From: Desulfobacterales bacterium
GTDB lineage: Bacteria; Desulfobacterota; DSM-4660; Desulfatiglandales; Desulfatiglandaceae
Direction of reading: 5' to 3'
Assembly (NCBI GenBank): GCA_022013615.1
Contig: JAKLQB010000730.1
Span: 1-16,510 of the forward strand
DNA: 16,510 bases
Position numbers and translations under genes: made by a program. A model generated the notes under the pieces. It worked only from the letters and a program-made list of their open reading frames with translations. It had not been told where the DNA came from and made no database searches. Shown here piece after piece: positions 2,255 through 9,462 of the stretch (positions are counted from its first letter, which is position 1; each line of letters begins with the position of its first letter).

Positions 2255-2315
2255 ATTCAATAAGTTAACGTGGCCCGACCTCAGCCCCTCAGCCCCTGTG
2301 TTAATAGGAGAAGGC

Positions 2316-3032
2316 ATGAAGTTACTGAGCTTTGACATAGAGATCTCGGATGTCTTCGAGCTCGGGAAGCACGAGGACATGGAGAAGTATGCGCCGTTTC
2401 ATATTTCGGTGGGGGCAACGGCGATACACAACGGTGAGGAGCGGGTGTGGTATTCGGACGATGAGGAGGGTCGTCCCGCGTTGAACCTGACGCGGGAACG
2501 TGCTCATGATTTGCTTGAGTATCTCGATGAGATGCAACAAAAAGGGTTCGTGGTGTGCGCGTGGAATGGCTTGGGCTTCGACCTGAAATGGATCGGCCAT
2601 CAAGCCGATGACATGGCCCTCGCCGCACGTATCGCTTTGAAGATCTACGACCCCATGTTCCAGTTCTTCAACCAGGCCGGCTTCCCCGTCGGGCTGGGAA
2701 AGGTGGCCGAAGGAATGGGCATCCCGCAAGAGAAACTCATGGACGGCGCGGACGCACCAAAGCAATGGCGTGCAGGAAATCATCAGGAGGTAATGGACTA
2801 CTGCCTCAGTGATTGCCAGATGACCAACCTCATCGTCCGCGCCATACAGGAGGCGCGGCAAGTTCGATGGGTGACGGGCAAAGGACACATCAGTTCAAAG
2901 CCTATGCCACGACTCAAATCCGTCGAAGAAGTCATCCAAGATCCCGAACCCGACCAGTCTTGGATGGATAACCCGCTTCTGAAGACAAAGTTCTACGAAT
3001 GGGTTCAGGAAGCCATAGGGACGAAAACATGA
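2316..3032 (+). CDS. DEDDy-family 3'-5' exonuclease, first gene of the SIR2-HerA operon
   Basis: The 238-residue protein is an RNase H-fold (DnaQ/PolB-exo-like) 3'-5' exonuclease. All three exo motifs are visible: Exo I LLSFDIE (D7, E9), Exo II AWNGLGFD (N84, D89) and Exo III YCLSD (Y162, D166). The tyrosine in Exo III marks the DEDDy subclass, and the acidic residues should bind two metal ions. It is a stand-alone exonuclease domain with no polymerase or helicase part. The start at 2316 is chosen because AGGAG lies 6 bases upstream; an in-frame GTG at 2298 lacks a site. Its stop overlaps the SIR2 start (ATGA at 3029-3032), so the two are translationally coupled. By context it may degrade invading DNA or RNA, or process an end for the ATPase, but that role is inference. 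Confidence 0.85.
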   Translation: MKLLSFDIEISDVFELGKHEDMEKYAPFHISVGATAIHNGEERVWYSDDEEGRPALNLTRERAHDLLEYLDEMQQKGFVVCAWNGLGFDLKWIGHQADDMALAARIALKIYDPMFQFFNQAGFPVGLGKVAEGMGIPQEKLMDGADAPKQWRAGNHQEVMDYCLSDCQMTNLIVRAIQEARQVRWVTGKGHISSKPMPRLKSVEEVIQDPEPDQSWMDNPLLKTKFYEWVQEAIGTKT

Positions 3033-4165
3033 GTGACGATCTAACATTATTCTCCTCGCCCGAACTCAAGGACACCGTTCAAGACATGCGAGATTTGCTA
3101 TCGCAAAATCGTCTTGCGTTCCTGCTCGGAGCCGGGTGCAGCCGGAAAGCAGGACTTCCGCTGATGCCAAAACTCACGGAAGAAGTCTTAGGGCACGACA
3201 AGCTCGGCGAGAAAACGAAAGAACTCCTCAACGAAGTCCGCGAGCTGTTCTCCGGCGCAAAGTGCGCCACAATCGAAGACTATATGAGCGAAATCGTTGA
3301 TCTTCTCTCGATTGCTGAGAGACGAACACAGCGTGGGGCCACGAAATCCAAGATTTCCGTGGGCAATCAGGAGACAAACTCCGCTGAACTCCAGGCTGCG
3401 CTTGACGAAATAAAGCAAGCCATCTCTTCAGCCATTGGCGACAAGGAAGTCGATGTCACGACCCACCAGCAATTCGTCAGAGCAATCCACGGTTCGCTGC
3501 AGGCAGGCAAGGCTGGTAGGGGTGTCGATTACTTCGTCCTCAACTACGACACGCTGATTGAAGATGCGCTGGGGCTTGGGCGAGTTGCCTATTTTGATGG
3601 CTTCACCGGTGCTGCAACCGGTTGGTGGGAACCGAGCACGTTTAGAACTAATGGAGAGGCTGCCAGAGTCTTCAAGATTCATGGCTCAATTGACTGGTGC
3701 CTGCTTGAGGGCGACTCCCTGCCAAGACGAATTCGCTCGGGAATCAAGACAGAGTCCCCCAAGAGCCACGTTCTAATCTACCCCGCCGCAACGAAATACC
3801 AGGAAACACAGCGTGATCCGTTCGCTCAGCTGATTCACCATATGCGCCTAAGCCTCTGCCCCAGCGAGAGAAAGGAAATGGTTCTGGCGATTTGTGGATA
3901 CAATTTCGGCGACTCACATATTGATCTGGAAATCGAGAATGCCTTGTACCAATCGAATGGCCGTCTGACCATAGCGGCGTTTACTGGGACTGACAAGCCG
4001 GAAGGAAAATTGAAGGACTGGTTGGCCGATCCAACGATTTCGGAACAGATTCGGGTATACGCCAAAAAAGGCTTCTTTCATGGCGACAAGGAAGTCAAAT
4101 TGGATGATGAAATACCATGGTGGAAGTTCGAGATTCTCGCAAGGCTCTTAGGAGGGGAACGATGA
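3029..4165 (+). CDS. SIR2-family NAD-processing protein (SIR2-HerA defence type)
   Basis: This 378-residue protein has the full set of SIR2 NAD-binding motifs: GAGCSRKAGLP (residues 34-44), the N-Y-D ribose-contacting motif (N172, D174) in VLNYDTL, and the catalytic histidine H218 in KIHGSIDW. Near the C-terminus GYNFGDSHI (from residue 290) is the signature of the prokaryotic SIR2-like defence branch rather than of protein deacylases. There is no zinc-binding cysteine set of classical sirtuins. In known defence systems such proteins hydrolyse NAD+ on phage infection and halt the cell. The gene begins in an ATGA overlap with the exonuclease and ends in another with herA. An in-frame ATG at 2999 lies inside the exonuclease gene and is less likely. 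Confidence 0.9.
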   Translation: MSDDLTLFSSPELKDTVQDMRDLLSQNRLAFLLGAGCSRKAGLPLMPKLTEEVLGHDKLGEKTKELLNEVRELFSGAKCATIEDYMSEIVDLLSIAERRTQRGATKSKISVGNQETNSAELQAALDEIKQAISSAIGDKEVDVTTHQQFVRAIHGSLQAGKAGRGVDYFVLNYDTLIEDALGLGRVAYFDGFTGAATGWWEPSTFRTNGEAARVFKIHGSIDWCLLEGDSLPRRIRSGIKTESPKSHVLIYPAATKYQETQRDPFAQLIHHMRLSLCPSERKEMVLAICGYNFGDSHIDLEIENALYQSNGRLTIAAFTGTDKPEGKLKDWLADPTISEQIRVYAKKGFFHGDKEVKLDDEIPWWKFEILARLLGGER

Positions 4166-5868
4166 AAGCGAAAAGAAATCCGAACGAGCCAATCTCGAAT
4201 CTGGAAATTGGCGCAGTGATTGAGGTCGATGGGACGCATATCATTGCCGAACTTGATCCAAAAATTACAGAACTCTCGCGCGTTTACGGTGGAATCATCT
4301 ATCCGATTGGTCAATTCGGCTCGATCATCAAGATACACTATGGCGCAAGTCTGATATTCGGCTACGTGGGGCGTCTCCGCATGAAGTCCGAGTATGAACG
4401 CGAAAAGGGGCTTACCCCGGAATCAAGTGGAAGTGCGCGGATTATTGAGGCTGACCTGTTCGGTGAGGGCGAATGGGTTTTTGACAAAGAAGAGTGGAGG
4501 CTGGACTTTGAGCGTGGCGTCACCACCTTTCCTTTGCCGCAGCAAAAGGTTTATCTAACACCACGTGCTGAGCTCGGCTTCATCTATGGTGAAGGAACGG
4601 GGCCTGTAATTCTCCTTGGTGAACACGTTGGGTCCGGCGGAACCCCTTGCTACGCTGAAATGAATGAACTTCTCGGTAAGCACACGGCGATATTGGGGTC
4701 TACTGGGGCCGGAAAGTCGGGAACAGTCGCTGCGATCCTTCATGCAATTCTTGACAGGGGAAGCGATGCAGGACATCAGAACTGGCATCCTCAAATCGTC
4801 GTTCTCGATCCGCATAATGAATACGGTGCGGCCTTTCCTGATCATGTCAGGTTATGTACTGACGAAAACTCGCTTAGCCTTCCTTACTGGCTTCTGAACC
4901 TCCAAGAGACAGTCAATCTTCTTATTGGAAAGACTGAGTTCGTTGCAACATCACAAGCCAATATCGTTAAGACTGCCATCTTGCTCGCACGGCACGATGC
5001 CGCTCAGACGGTGCGTCTCAATGAAGCGGAGATCAACGTTGATTCACCTGTTCCGTATAAATTGGACAGATTCGTCCACCATGTCGAGAACAGCACCAAT
5101 AAGCCTCCGCAGCCGAGCAAACAGGAGCCATGGAACTCGATACTCCACAAGATTGAGGTGTTGAAGAATGACTCCCGACTCGCATTTATGATGCAGGAAT
5201 GGGATGGCGATGCCGATCCTTTGCCGGAGATCGTGAAACAATTCCTCGGAGATAGCGATCCCATCCGAATCGTCGACTTATCCGGCGTCCCAAACGAAGT
5301 GGCAGGTGCTGCAAGTTCCGCGATTGCTCGAACGCTCTTCTCTGTAAAGCTCTGGCAGACGCGCGAGGAACGTGAAAGCAACCCGGTTCTACTTGTCTGC
5401 GAGGAAGCGCATCGCTATGTGCCGAATCGTGGTGAAGCGCAATACGAAGCCGCCCAGGATGCAATCCGACGTCTTGCTAAAGAAGGTCGCAAGTACGGCA
5501 TCGGTCTGATGCTCGTCTCGCAGCGACCGAGTGAGGTGGAGGCGACCGTGCTTTCCCAGTGCAATTCATGGATCGTCTTGCGTATCACCAACGACTCGGA
5601 TCGTAGCCATGTCCAAGGGATATTGCCGGATTCCCTGGCAGGGTTGACTAAGGTGCTTTCTGGGCTTCGTCGCCGGGAAGCAATCTTTGTAGGACAGGCC
5701 GCCGTCCTGCCGTCACGCATATTGATTCGCGATCTCGTCAAGGACGGCAAACCGCTGCCCCGCTCTCAGGACATAGATTTCGATACGGGATGGCAAGGCA
5801 GCCAGATAACCGACGAGCACCTGGCGGAGGTGGGCAAGAGGTGGCGTCTGCAGAGGAGGGATGTATGA
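4162..5868 (+). CDS. herA: HerA/FtsK-type hexameric P-loop ATPase, partner of SIR2
   Basis: The 568-residue product has an N-terminal HAS-barrel-like domain (about residues 12-75, with VIEVDGTHIIAEL and GGIIYPIGQFGSIIKI). The ATPase core follows: Walker A GSTGAGKS (179-186), Walker B-like LLVCEEAH ending near 417, and the SQRPSEV motif (from 453). These are HerA-type DNA-translocase features, and such proteins form hexameric rings. The acidic pair after Walker B is EE rather than the more common DE. In SIR2-HerA anti-phage systems this ring assembles with the SIR2 subunit and is needed for NAD+ depletion. Translation is coupled to sir2 by an ATGA overlap, helped by AGGAGGGG (4150-4157). No NurA gene is present; the DEDDy exonuclease takes the nuclease place in this operon. 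Confidence 0.92.
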   Translation: MKAKRNPNEPISNLEIGAVIEVDGTHIIAELDPKITELSRVYGGIIYPIGQFGSIIKIHYGASLIFGYVGRLRMKSEYEREKGLTPESSGSARIIEADLFGEGEWVFDKEEWRLDFERGVTTFPLPQQKVYLTPRAELGFIYGEGTGPVILLGEHVGSGGTPCYAEMNELLGKHTAILGSTGAGKSGTVAAILHAILDRGSDAGHQNWHPQIVVLDPHNEYGAAFPDHVRLCTDENSLSLPYWLLNLQETVNLLIGKTEFVATSQANIVKTAILLARHDAAQTVRLNEAEINVDSPVPYKLDRFVHHVENSTNKPPQPSKQEPWNSILHKIEVLKNDSRLAFMMQEWDGDADPLPEIVKQFLGDSDPIRIVDLSGVPNEVAGAASSAIARTLFSVKLWQTREERESNPVLLVCEEAHRYVPNRGEAQYEAAQDAIRRLAKEGRKYGIGLMLVSQRPSEVEATVLSQCNSWIVLRITNDSDRSHVQGILPDSLAGLTKVLSGLRRREAIFVGQAAVLPSRILIRDLVKDGKPLPRSQDIDFDTGWQGSQITDEHLAEVGKRWRLQRRDV

Positions 5869-5945
5869 TGCCCTCACGCAATGTGTTGTTTCAAACAGTT
5901 TGTAGGGTGCGGGTTGCCGTACCGGAAACCGAATACACATTCTGA
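5865..5945 (+). CDS. 26-codon ORF overlapping the herA stop; possible stub of a fourth gene
   Basis: ATG at 5865 overlaps the herA TGA (ATGA), like the two earlier junctions, and GAGGAGGG lies 4-5 bases upstream. The peptide (MMPSRNVLFQTVCRVRVAVP, then six more residues) matches nothing I recognise. The reading frame closes just as the sequence changes to gene-poor, repeat-bearing DNA. It could be the truncated start of a fourth operon gene, a tiny real peptide, or chance. Confidence 0.3.
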   Translation: MMPSRNVLFQTVCRVRVAVPETEYTF

Positions 5946-6117
5946 TCGTACGGAAACCAAATAAGACGCCGCGCCAGGATACAATGCGCCAGCCCCCATT
6001 GAAAACGCATGGATTACGCGAACAGAGAAGCAGCGTGTTATCTGGAAGTAAGACCCGAATGTGGGTCTATCTGGAAACCATATTAACAGAAATTAGGCAT
6101 CTCTCAGGAGGCAGACC

Positions 6118-6294
6118 ATGAACAGCCCTGGGCTTGGTACGAGGGACAGGCAGTACGCGTACAGGGGCCTGGTGATTTTCGCGCGAAGAAGAAAGTGGGG
6201 GTCAGCCCTTGACACAGGACATTTTCCTCTGTTCGTCTGTTCGTCTTCGTCTGGGTCGGACCAAGCTAAGCGTTTGATAGAACAAGATAAATGA
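6118..6294 (+). CDS. Doubtful small ORF with a strong ribosome binding site
   Basis: ATG at 6118 has AGGAGG (6106-6111) six bases upstream and opens 58 codons (starting MNSPGLGTRDRQYAYRG). The product is basic, then serine-rich, and matches no family I know. Its second half runs through the GGGGTCAG palindrome tip and the TTCGTC-rich patch, so it is probably a fortuitous ORF or a gene overrun by a repeat. Confidence 0.15.
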   Translation: MNSPGLGTRDRQYAYRGLVIFARRRKWGSALDTGHFPLFVCSSSSGSDQAKRLIEQDK

Positions 6295-6613
6295 GAAAAA
6301 TGATGGTCTTTTTGGGCCTTAGAATGCCCATTTCGGGGCTGAAACCATACCTTTAAGAGAAGAGTTGTAAGATACCAAGGGCGAACAGGCATTACATACC
6401 GGGTTGTGTGTGGCACACCCCAGTTAAATATGCATGCCCTGTTCAATCCTCCATAAGAGGTCCGCAAAGCAGGAATTCTAAAAGGCAGGCATTTAACAGA
6501 GGTTGAGAGTAAAGGATTTGTTAAGAGTGTAAGGCCTTCATTCAGAGCTCTTGCCAAAGGAGGAAAGCCCAGGGAGGGAGGAGGCTATCAATAAGATGAC
6601 TTGGCCTGACCCC
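6198..6613. mobile_element. Candidate REP/MITE-like element bounded by GGGGTCAG inverted tips
   Basis: GGGGTCAG at 6198-6205 and its exact complement CTGACCCC at 6606-6613 face each other across 416 bp. The interior holds a GGGCCT...GCCC hairpin region (about 6314-6345) and the 167-bp repeat, and no transposase. Tips of the GGGGTCAGGCC type are common at REP-like palindromes mobilised by RAYT (Y1-type) transposases. The tips are short (8 bp) and no target duplication was found, so the boundaries are tentative. Confidence 0.35.
6412..6578 (+). repeat. 167-bp direct repeat, copy 1
   Basis: This segment matches 8600-8766 at all but two positions (6415 A versus T, and 6498 A versus C) in the same orientation, at an exact 2188-base offset. 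It contains no gene. The near identity implies a recent duplication or active spread. The pair brackets the flavoprotein gene. Confidence 0.9.
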
Positions 6614-6736
6614 ATTTTAAATTTTAACATTTTACATATTCGGTGAGAAGCTGAGTGACTGTCGCATCGAGTTGAGAGCACGTTATTATTTTGACGCGGC
6701 AAACTTGCTTGATTAGATTCACCGTAAAGGTTTGTT

Positions 6737-8209
6737 TCAAATTTTTTCGGTTTGAAGACTGTTGACTAATGAATATCGCTCAAACAGCTCCACAAGCTCT
6801 ACTTTTAAGAGGTTGGCCTTATCCACCGCCTTCAAGTATCCCTCTTTGAGAGAACTGATCCGATCCACGGCCTTTACATACTCTTCGCGTAATATTGTGG
6901 TCCTCTTCTCAATATCCCTCCCATATTCATCTCTCAGGGAACTAAGTCCACCTCTTAGCGCCATTACATACTCTTCTTTAAGGGAAGCAAGCTTCTTAAG
7001 AGTCTTTTCATATTCAATCCAAAGGCTGCCCGCCATACTCTCTTCAGCGCACAGGTATTGCTCTTTCAATTCCTGCAGCAATTCCTTTACTGAAATTATT
7101 TTATCAACCCTAAAGGCATTGCTTCCGGCAAAGGCAAAACCCTTCTCCAGATCCCCTTTTCTGGCATTATCAAGCGCCAGGGAGATACAATAGGGCGCGG
7201 TTTTGATTTCACAGTTTTTGAGGCATCTCCAGGCACACCTGTGGCCCATCTTTTTCCCTGCTGAAATATCCCTCAAGAATTTGTTCCGGATAGCCCGGCC
7301 CGGCATGCCGACAGGGCTTTTGATAATTTGTATATCGCCTTCCTTGCAGGAGACATAGGCCTCCTTGAACCTGATGTCGGCGTCACATTCACGTGTGGCC
7401 ACGAACCGTGTCCCCATCTGGACACCGCTCGCTCCAAGCTTGAAAAGTTTGTAGATATCAGCGCCGGTAAAAACGCCGCCTGCGGCGATTACAGGGATGG
7501 TCCTGCGAAGTTTATCCTCATAGGTCTTTATCTCGGCAACTACGTCGGGCAAAATACATTCAAGCGCATATCCGGGATCATCGATTTGATCCTCTTTAAA
7601 TCCCAGGTGCCCCCCTGCCTTCGGCCCTTCCACAACAACACCATCGGGGATATCATCATACCTTTTCAACCAGGATCTGAAGATAAGCCCTGCCGCCCTT
7701 GCTGAGCTTACAATAGGAACCACTTTGACTCCGGCTGACCTGAGCTTTTCAACAGGAATTCCCTTAATCGGGAGTCCGGCTCCAAGAAAGACCATATCGA
7801 CCTTTTCTTCGATTGCGACCATAAGGAGGGCATGGAAATCCTGCACGGCCACCATAATATTGACCCCGATGATGCCCGAGGTCTTCTCTCGCGCCTTTCT
7901 TATCTCTTTTCTTAAGGCAATAGCATTGGCATCTTTGTGTTTGGCATAATAATCAGGGTCAAGCATTCCTATTGAGTTTGCAGCTATTACGCCTATGCCT
8001 CCTTCATTCGCCACTGCGGAAGCCAACCCTGACAGTGATATTCCAACACCCATTCCTCCCTGAACAATGGGGAGTTCCGAAACAGAATCACCGATTCTTA
8101 ATTTAGGGATTTTGGACCATTGAATTCGGGAAATATCGAACTTTGGCCACTCTATTTTTCCGAGGTCGAACTTCGGCATCTGCAACTTTGATATCATATT
8201 GAAATCCAC
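6737..8209 (-). CDS. Nitronate monooxygenase-like FMN oxidoreductase with a C-terminal coiled-coil repeat
   Basis: About 490 residues. The core is a TIM-barrel NPD/nitronate-monooxygenase-type flavoprotein: PIVQGGMGVGISLSGLA, GVIGVNIMVAV, EGPKAGGHLGF (with the conserved His) and the phosphate-binding IPVIAAGGVFTGADIYKLF. A cysteine-bearing segment (CAWRCLKNCEIKTAPYC) and FAFAGSNAFRVDKI are typical of one anaerobe-type subgroup. Substrate is uncertain (nitronate, or an enoyl-reductase-like role). Two parts are unusual. A decapeptide repeat such as WPKFDISRIQ sits at the N-terminus. From about residue 381 there are seven units of L-[KR]-x-E-Y (14-15 residues), a probable coiled coil beyond the usual family length. 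GTG at 8209 is preferred as start (AAGGAG 9 bases upstream); ATG at 8197 is the alternative. The upstream ATG at 8269 would lie before the promoter. Confidence 0.82.
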   Translation of the reverse strand: MDFNMISKLQMPKFDLGKIEWPKFDISRIQWSKIPKLRIGDSVSELPIVQGGMGVGISLSGLASAVANEGGIGVIAANSIGMLDPDYYAKHKDANAIALRKEIRKAREKTSGIIGVNIMVAVQDFHALLMVAIEEKVDMVFLGAGLPIKGIPVEKLRSAGVKVVPIVSSARAAGLIFRSWLKRYDDIPDGVVVEGPKAGGHLGFKEDQIDDPGYALECILPDVVAEIKTYEDKLRRTIPVIAAGGVFTGADIYKLFKLGASGVQMGTRFVATRECDADIRFKEAYVSCKEGDIQIIKSPVGMPGRAIRNKFLRDISAGKKMGHRCAWRCLKNCEIKTAPYCISLALDNARKGDLEKGFAFAGSNAFRVDKIISVKELLQELKEQYLCAEESMAGSLWIEYEKTLKKLASLKEEYVMALRGGLSSLRDEYGRDIEKRTTILREEYVKAVDRISSLKEGYLKAVDKANLLKVELVELFERYSLVNSLQTEKI

Positions 8210-8230
8210 CAGCAAATTCTCCTTCTTCGA

Positions 8231-8259
8231 AATACAGGATGATTGGGCCTGTGTGTCAA
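8231..8259 (-). promoter_or_regulatory. Sigma70-type promoter of the flavoprotein gene
   Basis: On the minus strand TTGACA (8259-8254) is separated by exactly 17 bases from TGTATT (8236-8231). Transcription would begin near 8224, giving a very short leader before GTG 8209 with AAGGAG at its 5' end. This argues against the longer reading frame from 8269. Confidence 0.6.
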
Positions 8260-8317
8260 GTTTACACAAAGGACCGGAGCCGACGGTCAGGCCGAATCAT
8301 TAAAGCGATAAGATTAA

Positions 8318-8360: not shown

Positions 8361-8599
8361 CAGGCCGAGCAGGCGGTAGTGCGAGACGCGTGGTGATCTA
8401 TCGGCTCCCATCGAGTAAGGGCAGCAACTGTTCGGATTGCGGATTGGGGTCGGGCCGCGCTAAGCAGTTGATATTAAATGAAATGATGCCGAAAACCGTG
8501 CGGATATTGGGCCTATATTGGCCTTTTTAAAGGCGAAAAGAGAGATATAGACAGCAGGTAATGGTCAGAACCAAAAGACACTACATCCAGGACAAATTT

Positions 8600-8766
8600 G
8601 GCTCACCCCAGTTAAATATGCATGCCCTGTTCAATCCTCCATAAGAGGTCCGCAAAGCAGGAATTCTAAAAGGCAGGCATTTAACCGAGGTTGAGAGTAA
8701 AGGATTTGTTAAGAGTGTAAGGCCTTCATTCAGAGCTCTTGCCAAAGGAGGAAAGCCCAGGGAGGG
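8600..8766 (+). repeat. 167-bp direct repeat, copy 2
   Basis: Same sequence and orientation as 6412-6578 with two differences. Here the right side runs straight into the brnT promoter region, and the GGCCTGACCCC tip that follows copy 1 is absent. Confidence 0.9.
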
Positions 8767-8827: not shown

Positions 8828-9127
8828 ATGGAAAATGATTTTGACAATTTTGTGGGGTTCCAATGGGACCAAGGTAATATCGACAAGAACCTCATCAAGC
8901 ACGATGTCGAAAACTGGGAGTGTGAACAAATATTCTTCAACAAACCGCTACTTATTTTAGACGATCCAAAACACTCTATCGCAGAAAAGCGATGGGCTGC
9001 ATTTGGCATGACAGACGCAGATCGTCCCCTTGTCGTATTGTTTACGAAAAGAGGAAATTTGCTAAGAATCATTTCCACAAGAGACATGAGTAGGAAAGAG
9101 AGGAAGTTCTATGAAGAAAAAGGATAA
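8828..9127 (+). CDS. brnT: BrnT-family ribonuclease toxin
   Basis: The 99-residue protein has the BrnT (RelE-fold RNase) pattern: FQWDQGNIDKNLIKHDV at the N-terminus, then KRWAAFGMTDADRPLVVLFT, and the closing signature LLRIISTRDMSRKERKFYEE with the basic and acidic residues of the active region. BrnT toxins cleave mRNA and arrest growth until bound by BrnA. The gene is intact and overlaps brnA by 17 bases. No Shine-Dalgarno site precedes the ATG, which fits leaderless initiation from the adjacent promoter. Confidence 0.88.
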   Translation: MENDFDNFVGFQWDQGNIDKNLIKHDVENWECEQIFFNKPLLILDDPKHSIAEKRWAAFGMTDADRPLVVLFTKRGNLLRIISTRDMSRKERKFYEEKG

Positions 9128-9440
9128 AACCATTCCAAAATTCAAGAATGAAGATGAGGAACGAGAATTCTGGGCCACGCATTCCCCTCTTGATTATTTT
9201 GATACGAAGGATTTCAAGAGAGCCCCGTTTCCTAATCTGAAGCCATCACTCAAATCCATCTCTATTCGTCTCCCAGAGGACATGCTAGCTGAACTCAAAA
9301 CCCTCGCAAACAAGAAAGATGTGCCTTACCAGAGTCTGGCGAAAATCTATCTTGCCAGACAAATTTCATTAGAGCGTGGATCTTTCCGCACTGCTCCGAA
9401 AATGAGAAGACGGAAACCTGATGCCCAACAAGTCACTTGA
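9111..9440 (+). CDS. brnA: BrnA-type (CopG/ribbon-helix-helix) antitoxin
   Basis: The 109-residue product carries the antitoxin segment KFKNEDEEREFWATHSPLDY that typically precedes the DNA-binding part, then a ribbon-helix-helix domain with SISIRLPEDMLAELKTLA and PYQSLAKIYLARQ. It should wrap the BrnT toxin and bind the operator at 8792-8816. It starts inside brnT, with AGAGGAAG just before the ATG. The basic tail (KMRRRKPD) is slightly longer than usual. The last codons overlap a GCCCAAC motif described with the attC-like site. Confidence 0.85.
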   Translation: MKKKDKTIPKFKNEDEEREFWATHSPLDYFDTKDFKRAPFPNLKPSLKSISIRLPEDMLAELKTLANKKDVPYQSLAKIYLARQISLERGSFRTAPKMRRRKPDAQQVT

Positions 9441-9462
9441 GCTTCGCTCACCCCCGTTAGGC
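9423..9462 (+). other. Short attC-like site at the 3' end of brnA
   Basis: GCCCAAC (9423-9429) fits the integron R'' consensus and GTTAGGC (9456-9462) fits R'. Between them TGAGC and GCTCA form an inner stem around TTC, as L boxes would. Overlap with the end of a toxin-antitoxin cassette is typical of chromosomal integrons. The 40-bp length is shorter than classical attC sites, no integrase is in the window, and no second site was found, so this may be a decayed site or coincidence. Confidence 0.3.

Follow-up and report, generated by a model that had tools for sequence, protein, structure and literature searches.

A SIR2-HerA defense pair in a Desulfobacterales bacterium is preceded by a coupled DEDDy-type exonuclease gene that looks like an optional, independently kept first cistron

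SIR2 and HerA form a known NADase defense pair. In Vibrio cholerae, protection by SIR2-HerA requires the NADase residues (N168/H227) and HerA, and NADase, helicase, and nuclease activities have been reported for the E. coli pair (PMC11559045). The parts available to us of two further papers describe variants with HerA partnered by an endonuclease in place of the sirtuin (PMC9503650) and place SIR2/HerA, as GAO_19, beside restriction-modification genes (PMC11514479). In the available parts of the literature, including PMC11559045, PMC9503650, PMC11514479, PMC12977600, and PMC12345164, no exonuclease-SIR2-HerA operon is described. We analyzed such an arrangement in a 16,510-nucleotide stretch of DNA from a Desulfobacterales bacterium (assembly GCA_022013615.1, contig JAKLQB010000730.1), which we call the window. 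An earlier note on this DNA had proposed that the exonuclease is a third subunit or effector of the defense system. We favor the reading, with a probability of roughly 0.6, that an autonomous DEDDy exonuclease has joined a Nezha-type SIR2-HerA abortive-infection pair at this locus as an optional, coupled, and independently selected first cistron.

The open reading frames (ORFs), Pfam matches, and alignments agree on three genes with intact motifs and two ATGA overlaps, as the earlier note had described (Table 1), and the residues that it named (D7, H218, and K185) are positioned correctly. The exonuclease matches DNA_pol_B_exo2 (PF10108; expectation value [E] of 1.9e-7) and RNase_H_2 (E of 2.8e-6), both above the cut-off, SIR2 matches SIR2_2 (PF13289; 8.7e-9), and HerA matches DUF87 (1.8e-30). 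The exonuclease motifs are D7/E9, N84..D89, and Y162..D166, which we take to be the DEDDy pattern. D7, E9, D89, Y162, and D166 are invariant in 38 aligned exonucleases (the window's and 37 relatives of 51-91% identity). With DxE, D, and YxxxD all present, the protein is predicted to be a DEDDy (DNA_pol_B_exo2) exonuclease. No PADLOC or NCBIfam match was found for it and no solved relative by sequence below an E of 1. If translation began at an alternative GTG at 2298, the product would have 244 amino acids. HerA has a Walker B-like LVCEEAH at 411. The same ATGA and SIR2 start lie behind the exonuclease in five other loci (L002, L006, L007, L008, and L010); therefore, this junction is not a chance one. 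Predicted promoters and terminators near the operon were at chance level only, and there was no Rfam or tRNA match anywhere in the window.

Table 1. Coordinates of the exonuclease-SIR2-HerA locus in the window
Feature	Position	Strand	Remarks
Left edge of block common to exonuclease loci in other genomes	2303-2315	+	Purine-rich, putative ribosome-binding stretch
DEDDy-type 3'-5' exonuclease-like gene (DNA_pol_B_exo2 / RNase_H_2)	2316-3032	+	238 amino acids from ATG
ATGA overlap, exonuclease stop / SIR2 start	3029-3032	+	
SIR2 family NADase-like gene	3029-4165	+	378 amino acids; N172 and H218 at NADase site
ATGA overlap, SIR2 stop / HerA start	4162-4165	+	
HerA family ATPase gene	4162-5868	+	568 amino acids; Walker A K185

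The second and third genes resemble Nezha (GAO_19), in which a SIR2 NADase-like gene and a HerA ATPase gene are likewise adjacent. Nezha pairs assemble into a 12:6 complex, deplete NAD+, and protect against phages. SIR2 falls in PADLOC group PDLC04088 (2.1e-73) and HerA in PDLC04105 (1.9e-130). The best solved match of HerA is 8wiv (E of 9e-69) and that of SIR2 is 8w9l, with the matched entries partly common to both. The SIR2 motifs are G34AG, N172YDT, and H218GS. N172 and H218 are invariant across 21 sequences and align with the NYD and HGS of the solved chains 8w9l and 8yhx. With these NADase residues and an adjoining HerA that carries Walker motifs, the pair is, judged by sequence, a member of the known Nezha-type (GAO_19) NADase defense pairs, and the earlier note had placed it correctly. 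Two differences stand out. The window adds a coupled exonuclease cistron upstream, and its SIR2 scores only 52 bits against the NCBIfam SIR2_antiphage cut-off of 500. Therefore, it belongs to a divergent subfamily.

An exonuclease profile search of a reference-genome collection yielded 67 loci, 58 of them with a full-length gene, in Thermodesulfobacteriota, Nitrospirota, Nitrospinota, Deferribacterota, Planctomycetota, Pseudomonadota, and others. An intact SIR2-HerA pair lay behind the exonuclease in one of the 67, L032, on a distant branch, and its SIR2 and HerA fall in the same PADLOC groups as the window pair. No intact SIR2 or HerA was found in the 25 loci with an exonuclease of at least 63% identity and at least 1.2 kb downstream (L006 and L008 have SIR2 pieces), or in the 19 loci of at least 63% identity with at least 3.2 kb downstream. 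Below 63% identity, both genes were present in 1 of 23 loci (L032). Altogether, 48 loci combine a full exonuclease with 1.2 kb or more of downstream sequence, and 47 of them lack an intact pair. In L008, a decayed 5' part of SIR2 accompanies the exonuclease. L062 has a frame-broken exonuclease and, behind it, a broken HerA for which the best PADLOC models are PDLC04101 and PDLC04105; SIR2 was not seen there.

We also considered a conserved alternative partner behind the exonuclease. This was rejected because 10 downstream proteins from nine loci had no common family. Separately, L035 has an RNase_T exonuclease-plus-BRCT protein (5305-6639) 27 bases after an exonuclease relative of 55% identity, and L037 has an ORF of equal size at an equal distance. 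The exonucleases of L064 and L065 are apparently truncated, with similarity limited to 87 and 63 residues, respectively, on contigs that extend further. Exonuclease relatives were absent from GenBank phages and PLSDB plasmids at an E of 1e-5. One relative (54%) is on a viral contig, at 7992-8714 of L090, among genes that read like phage genes. It has a weak match to phrog_403, the DNA polymerase exonuclease subunit (E of 0.059).

Recurrence of the triple was assessed by a proxy, namely, protein clusters whose longest contigs have exactly equal size in separate match lists. Among the best 120 matches for each protein, equal longest contigs were shared by exonuclease and SIR2 in five cases, by SIR2 and HerA in 35, and by exonuclease and HerA in two. 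The five include contigs 130346 (which also has HerA), 298823, and 4550, the last with a Candidatus Methanospirareceae archaeon metagenome-assembled genome (MAG) named in both the exonuclease and the SIR2 lists. For SIR2 clusters of at least 78% identity on contigs of at least 20 kb, the contig was common to the exonuclease in 2 of 19 and to HerA in 6 of 19, again within the best 120. As read from these contigs, the exonuclease-SIR2-HerA order recurs, and the window is not alone in having the three-gene form.

These data bear on the possibility that the exonuclease is a passenger, i.e., an unrelated, widely moving gene that landed before SIR2-HerA by chance and then spread with the pair. Its occurrence mostly without the pair, in varied contexts, would suit a passenger, as would a fixed 5' edge suggesting that it moves as its own unit (see below). 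However, the coupled overlap is conserved, the identities of exonuclease (82-85%) and SIR2 (81-86%) to the window track each other on the five common contigs, and the window and L032 couplings involve the same PADLOC SIR2 and HerA groups. We therefore regard a passenger as doubtful.

Searches from the side of the pair were done in genomes of two phyla, which we name after their center genomes (L001, a Desulfobacteraceae MAG, and L032, a Sedimentisphaerales MAG). In L001's phylum, 16 of 395 genomes had SIR2 relatives at an E of 1e-10, in 17 loci (L072-L088). HerA adjoins SIR2 in all 17, and the exonuclease was found in none, within the 1.0 to 1.5 kb examined. In L032's phylum, 7 of 392 genomes had SIR2 at an E of 1e-15. 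The exonuclease was found in none of six SIR2 loci besides L032, L117 having upstream DNA too short to judge. In L114, SIR2 is broken and HerA was not seen. The eight closest outside relatives, with SIR2 identities of 43-54% (L068, L069, L072, L089, L091, L092, L112, and L113), also had no exonuclease. L068 and L069 are alike and end right after SIR2, and L072 is also counted among the 17. SIR2 relatives without the exonuclease in this identity range comprise plasmid, viral, and planctomycete ones. The HerA of L089 is truncated, matching in its first part only, ahead of a Tn3 transposase gene. No SIR2 was detected in 53 genomes of G012's order, in a search run without a positive control.

Some of these pairs have restriction-modification neighbors. 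The L089 SIR2-HerA is behind a type I restriction-modification specificity subunit by annotation. Longer takes of L112 and L113 (L118 and L119) have their pairs behind restriction-modification genes, as judged from ORFs alone.

A fixed three-gene system would have the exonuclease in most SIR2-HerA relatives, which is not what was found. An obligate third component, binding SIR2-HerA and needed for sensing or as a second effector arm, would account for the two ATGA overlaps, for the first junction being retained in several genomes, for L032, where a distant SIR2-HerA forms a second triple, and for the proxy count in the closest SIR2 relatives (2/5 long contigs, with the best 120 matches listed). 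We nevertheless dropped it as the leading reading, given its absence from the 17 loci of L001's phylum and from the relatives of 43-54% SIR2 identity, and the 47 of 48 exonuclease loci without an intact pair. It is unlikely.

L032 might represent an independent event. In the SIR2 and HerA trees, rows without the exonuclease separate the window from L032. Identity of L032 to the window is 46% for HerA and 59% for the exonuclease. Of the three proteins on contig 130346, HerA is the best conserved (95% versus 85% and 82%); therefore, the L032 HerA is too distant for simple co-divergence with its exonuclease. We have taken the window and L032 as two separate couplings, with one old coupling followed by many losses as the alternative.

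Traces of SIR2 remain behind exonucleases that now lack the pair. Of 30 loci scanned, six (L002, L006, L007, L008, L010, and L012) have a match to the SIR2 start behind the exonuclease that outscores all 200 shuffles, with remnants of 18 to 74 bases. Matches were weaker in L016, L005, and L003, where 2, 6, and 7 of the 200 shuffles, respectively, did equally well, and in L016 the match is followed by a 52-base internal SIR2 stretch. The remnant endpoints differ among loci, save one common to L002 and L007. This suggests that the triple existed repeatedly and then lost SIR2-HerA. In an exonuclease tree, triple-labeled rows (picked from matches of at least 79% identity) are interspersed with other rows, requiring seven changes for seven triple rows.

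Exonucleases without the pair appear to be maintained. Across 233 codons, no stop interrupts any of 15 genes (the window's and 14 from loci that lack an intact pair), and their ratio of nonsynonymous to synonymous divergence (dN/dS) has a median of 0.084 and a range of 0.037-0.181 (98 of 105 pairs usable). In 18 of 20 exonuclease-bearing genomes, there is no SIR2 relative at an E of 1e-10, and the matches in the other two are the L008 and L032 loci themselves. Therefore, the exonuclease seems to be kept without its partner. For an empty-site comparison at L007, no counterpart emerged: among four family genomes, the full flank is only in L007's own. Taken together, the exonuclease looks like a mobile add-on, wanting in many relatives of the pair and often surviving alone after the pair was deleted.

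Retention of exactly this gene, together with its place as first coupled cistron, resembles antitoxin retention. It might thus be a safeguard that removes or damps a nucleic acid trigger of SIR2-HerA and later gives anti-addiction protection once the toxic pair is lost. However, outside relatives of the pair manage without the exonuclease, the nucleic acid trigger is itself hypothetical here, and an independent function explains retention equally well, which makes a safeguard very improbable.

The reading in the earlier note is thus partly supported. The gene order recurs (common contigs, SIR2 remnants, L032, and L062), but the counts (0/17, 0/8, and 1/67) argue against an obligate subunit. 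A count of how often the exonuclease precedes SIR2-HerA, as the note had suggested, is split between intact pairs (1/67, and 0/25 at 63% identity or more) and SIR2 starts (6/30). The note had also held that near-absence of the exonuclease from relatives of the pair would mark a passenger. Outside relatives do lack it (0/17 and 0/8), but the proxy gives 2/19 for the closest ones (SIR2 identity of at least 78%) and 2/5 at 82% or more.

The exonuclease has a sharp left boundary. In L001-L023, the DNA becomes similar to the window at a point between 2295 and 2322 and is unrelated upstream of it, and exonuclease homology begins within ~20 bases of its own start codon. Flank decay could mimic such an edge. 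However, synonymous divergence of L001 from the window is just 0.19, so an upstream flank, if shared, should align, and similarity starts at 2303. This argues against decay for L001, but not for distant loci.

A direct-repeat scan of 38 loci found repeats just before the exonuclease in L008, L016, L010, and L064. In L008, the exonuclease and SIR2 stump are between 155-nucleotide direct repeats (91%), near further attC-like sites. In L016, a 67-nucleotide repeat (90%) ends 14 bases before the start codon. These two loci look like integron cassettes, as two or three loci overall may be, by an attC-like motif of the kind that marks such cassettes. The attC-like core occurs six times in 287 kb of exonuclease loci plus the window (window, two; L008, three; L010, one), compared with two occurrences across 829 kb from other loci. 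A palindrome test gave a p of <0.05 in 4 of 28 rows (L001, L008, L015, and L066) and does not flag L016 or L010. An integron integrase scored above the cut-off in 7 of the 20 genomes with the exonuclease and in 8 of 60 other genomes from the phylum of L007 (Bacterium BMS3Bbin08), which we take to be Nitrospirota (p of 0.039). This enrichment is weak because phyla are mixed. In the two genomes checked, G005 (L007) and G006, the integrase was not on the contig of the exonuclease. The window's own operon has no attC and no boundary repeat at its exonuclease. We considered the integron cassette as a general vehicle and kept it as a partial explanation, given the palindromes in 4 of 28 rows and the weak enrichment.

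Other features were seen at these loci. L008, from a Candidatus Anammoxibacter in an apparent integron array, has an AbiP2-like reverse transcriptase (1402-2907; PADLOC E of 7.5e-190) behind the exonuclease and SIR2 stump. L010 has four copies of a repeat of ~190 nucleotides around the exonuclease (245-434, 1127-1315, 2846-3031, and 9092-9281), with ends that we read as palindromic, and an 18-base piece of it recurs near the integron integrase of the same genome. In the window, overlapping BrnT-type toxin and CopG antitoxin genes (8828-9440) are accompanied by an attC-like string (9423-9462), as in integron cassettes. The window also has a 168-nucleotide direct repeat, 99% identical (6411-6578 and 8599-8766), flanking a minus-strand nitronate monooxygenase-like gene (6737-8269). 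Diverged short stretches of this repeat also lie upstream of the exonuclease (2090-2115 and 2256-2283).

Several points weigh against an optional, independently selected exonuclease. The proxy is limited by its lists, which are the best 120 of 860, 1321, and 7757 matches for the three proteins. Its count of 2/5 among those listed was obtained at SIR2 identities of at least 82% on long contigs, so coupling in the closest clade may be tighter. No convincing SIR2 remnant was found in 21 of the 30 scanned loci, and a past triple is therefore not shown for them. Good support is limited to 5 of 30 inner branches of the exonuclease tree, in which a triple label means an equal longest contig (for P0021, through HerA only). 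In the dN/dS set, dS exceeds 1 for many pairs, and the low ratio may be partly older than the loss of SIR2-HerA. We infer an action on phage nucleic acid from family and position only, and a role in replication or repair would also suit the phrog_403 match and the L090 relative on a viral contig.

Even so, an optional and independently selected first cistron can be cast as a mechanism. Upon infection, HerA-dependent SIR2 would hydrolyze NAD+ and stop the cell, as is known for relatives. The exonuclease might trim or degrade single-stranded or free-ended invader nucleic acid, or ends handled by HerA. It would be an optional first-line helper, comparable to the ancillary nucleases of other defense operons, and would spread between phyla as a small unit starting just before its start codon, apparently in the form of an integron cassette in some hosts. 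Because it is proposed to work without partners, it could be retained when a costly suicide arm is deleted. The earlier note had envisaged a system with both nuclease and NADase arms, and this combination would not be new as a principle because E. coli SIR2-HerA has already been reported with both (PMC11559045).

Three comparisons help to place the exonuclease. As far as the available parts of our sources describe them, HerA-NurA and HerA-DUF4297 operons also have a HerA ATPase with a nuclease partner. In the window, however, the nuclease is a putative DEDDy exonuclease, SIR2 is between it and HerA, and nuclease genes of this type mostly occur without HerA. With phage DNA polymerase exonuclease subunits (DNA_pol_B_exo2 / phrog_403), the exonuclease shares a family match, DEDDy residues, and the 54% viral-contig relative, but it is not beside a polymerase. 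In cells, it is operonic with SIR2-HerA or alone. Cap18 of CBASS (cyclic oligonucleotide-based antiphage signaling systems) is an optional ancillary 3'-5' exonuclease of a defense operon. The window exonuclease is similarly an extra gene, but Cap18 is DEDDh and belongs to CBASS, and no sequence relation between the two was found. In the available part of PMC12345164, Cap18 is named as a DEDDh structural relative of a different protein.

More tentatively, the exonuclease might be an autonomous defense or safeguard gene that repeatedly recruits SIR2-HerA as a detachable suicide arm and is cassette-borne across phyla and archaea. Hosts would retain the nuclease after deleting the suicide arm, leaving a natural series of "disarmed" loci. 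Few defense systems show a visible record of an accessory gene joining and of the lethal part being lost. Here, the same exonuclease occurs in three states across many phyla: alone, with a SIR2 stump, and with an intact pair. Therefore, natural sequences would allow direct tests of what an accessory nuclease contributes and what a NADase arm costs.

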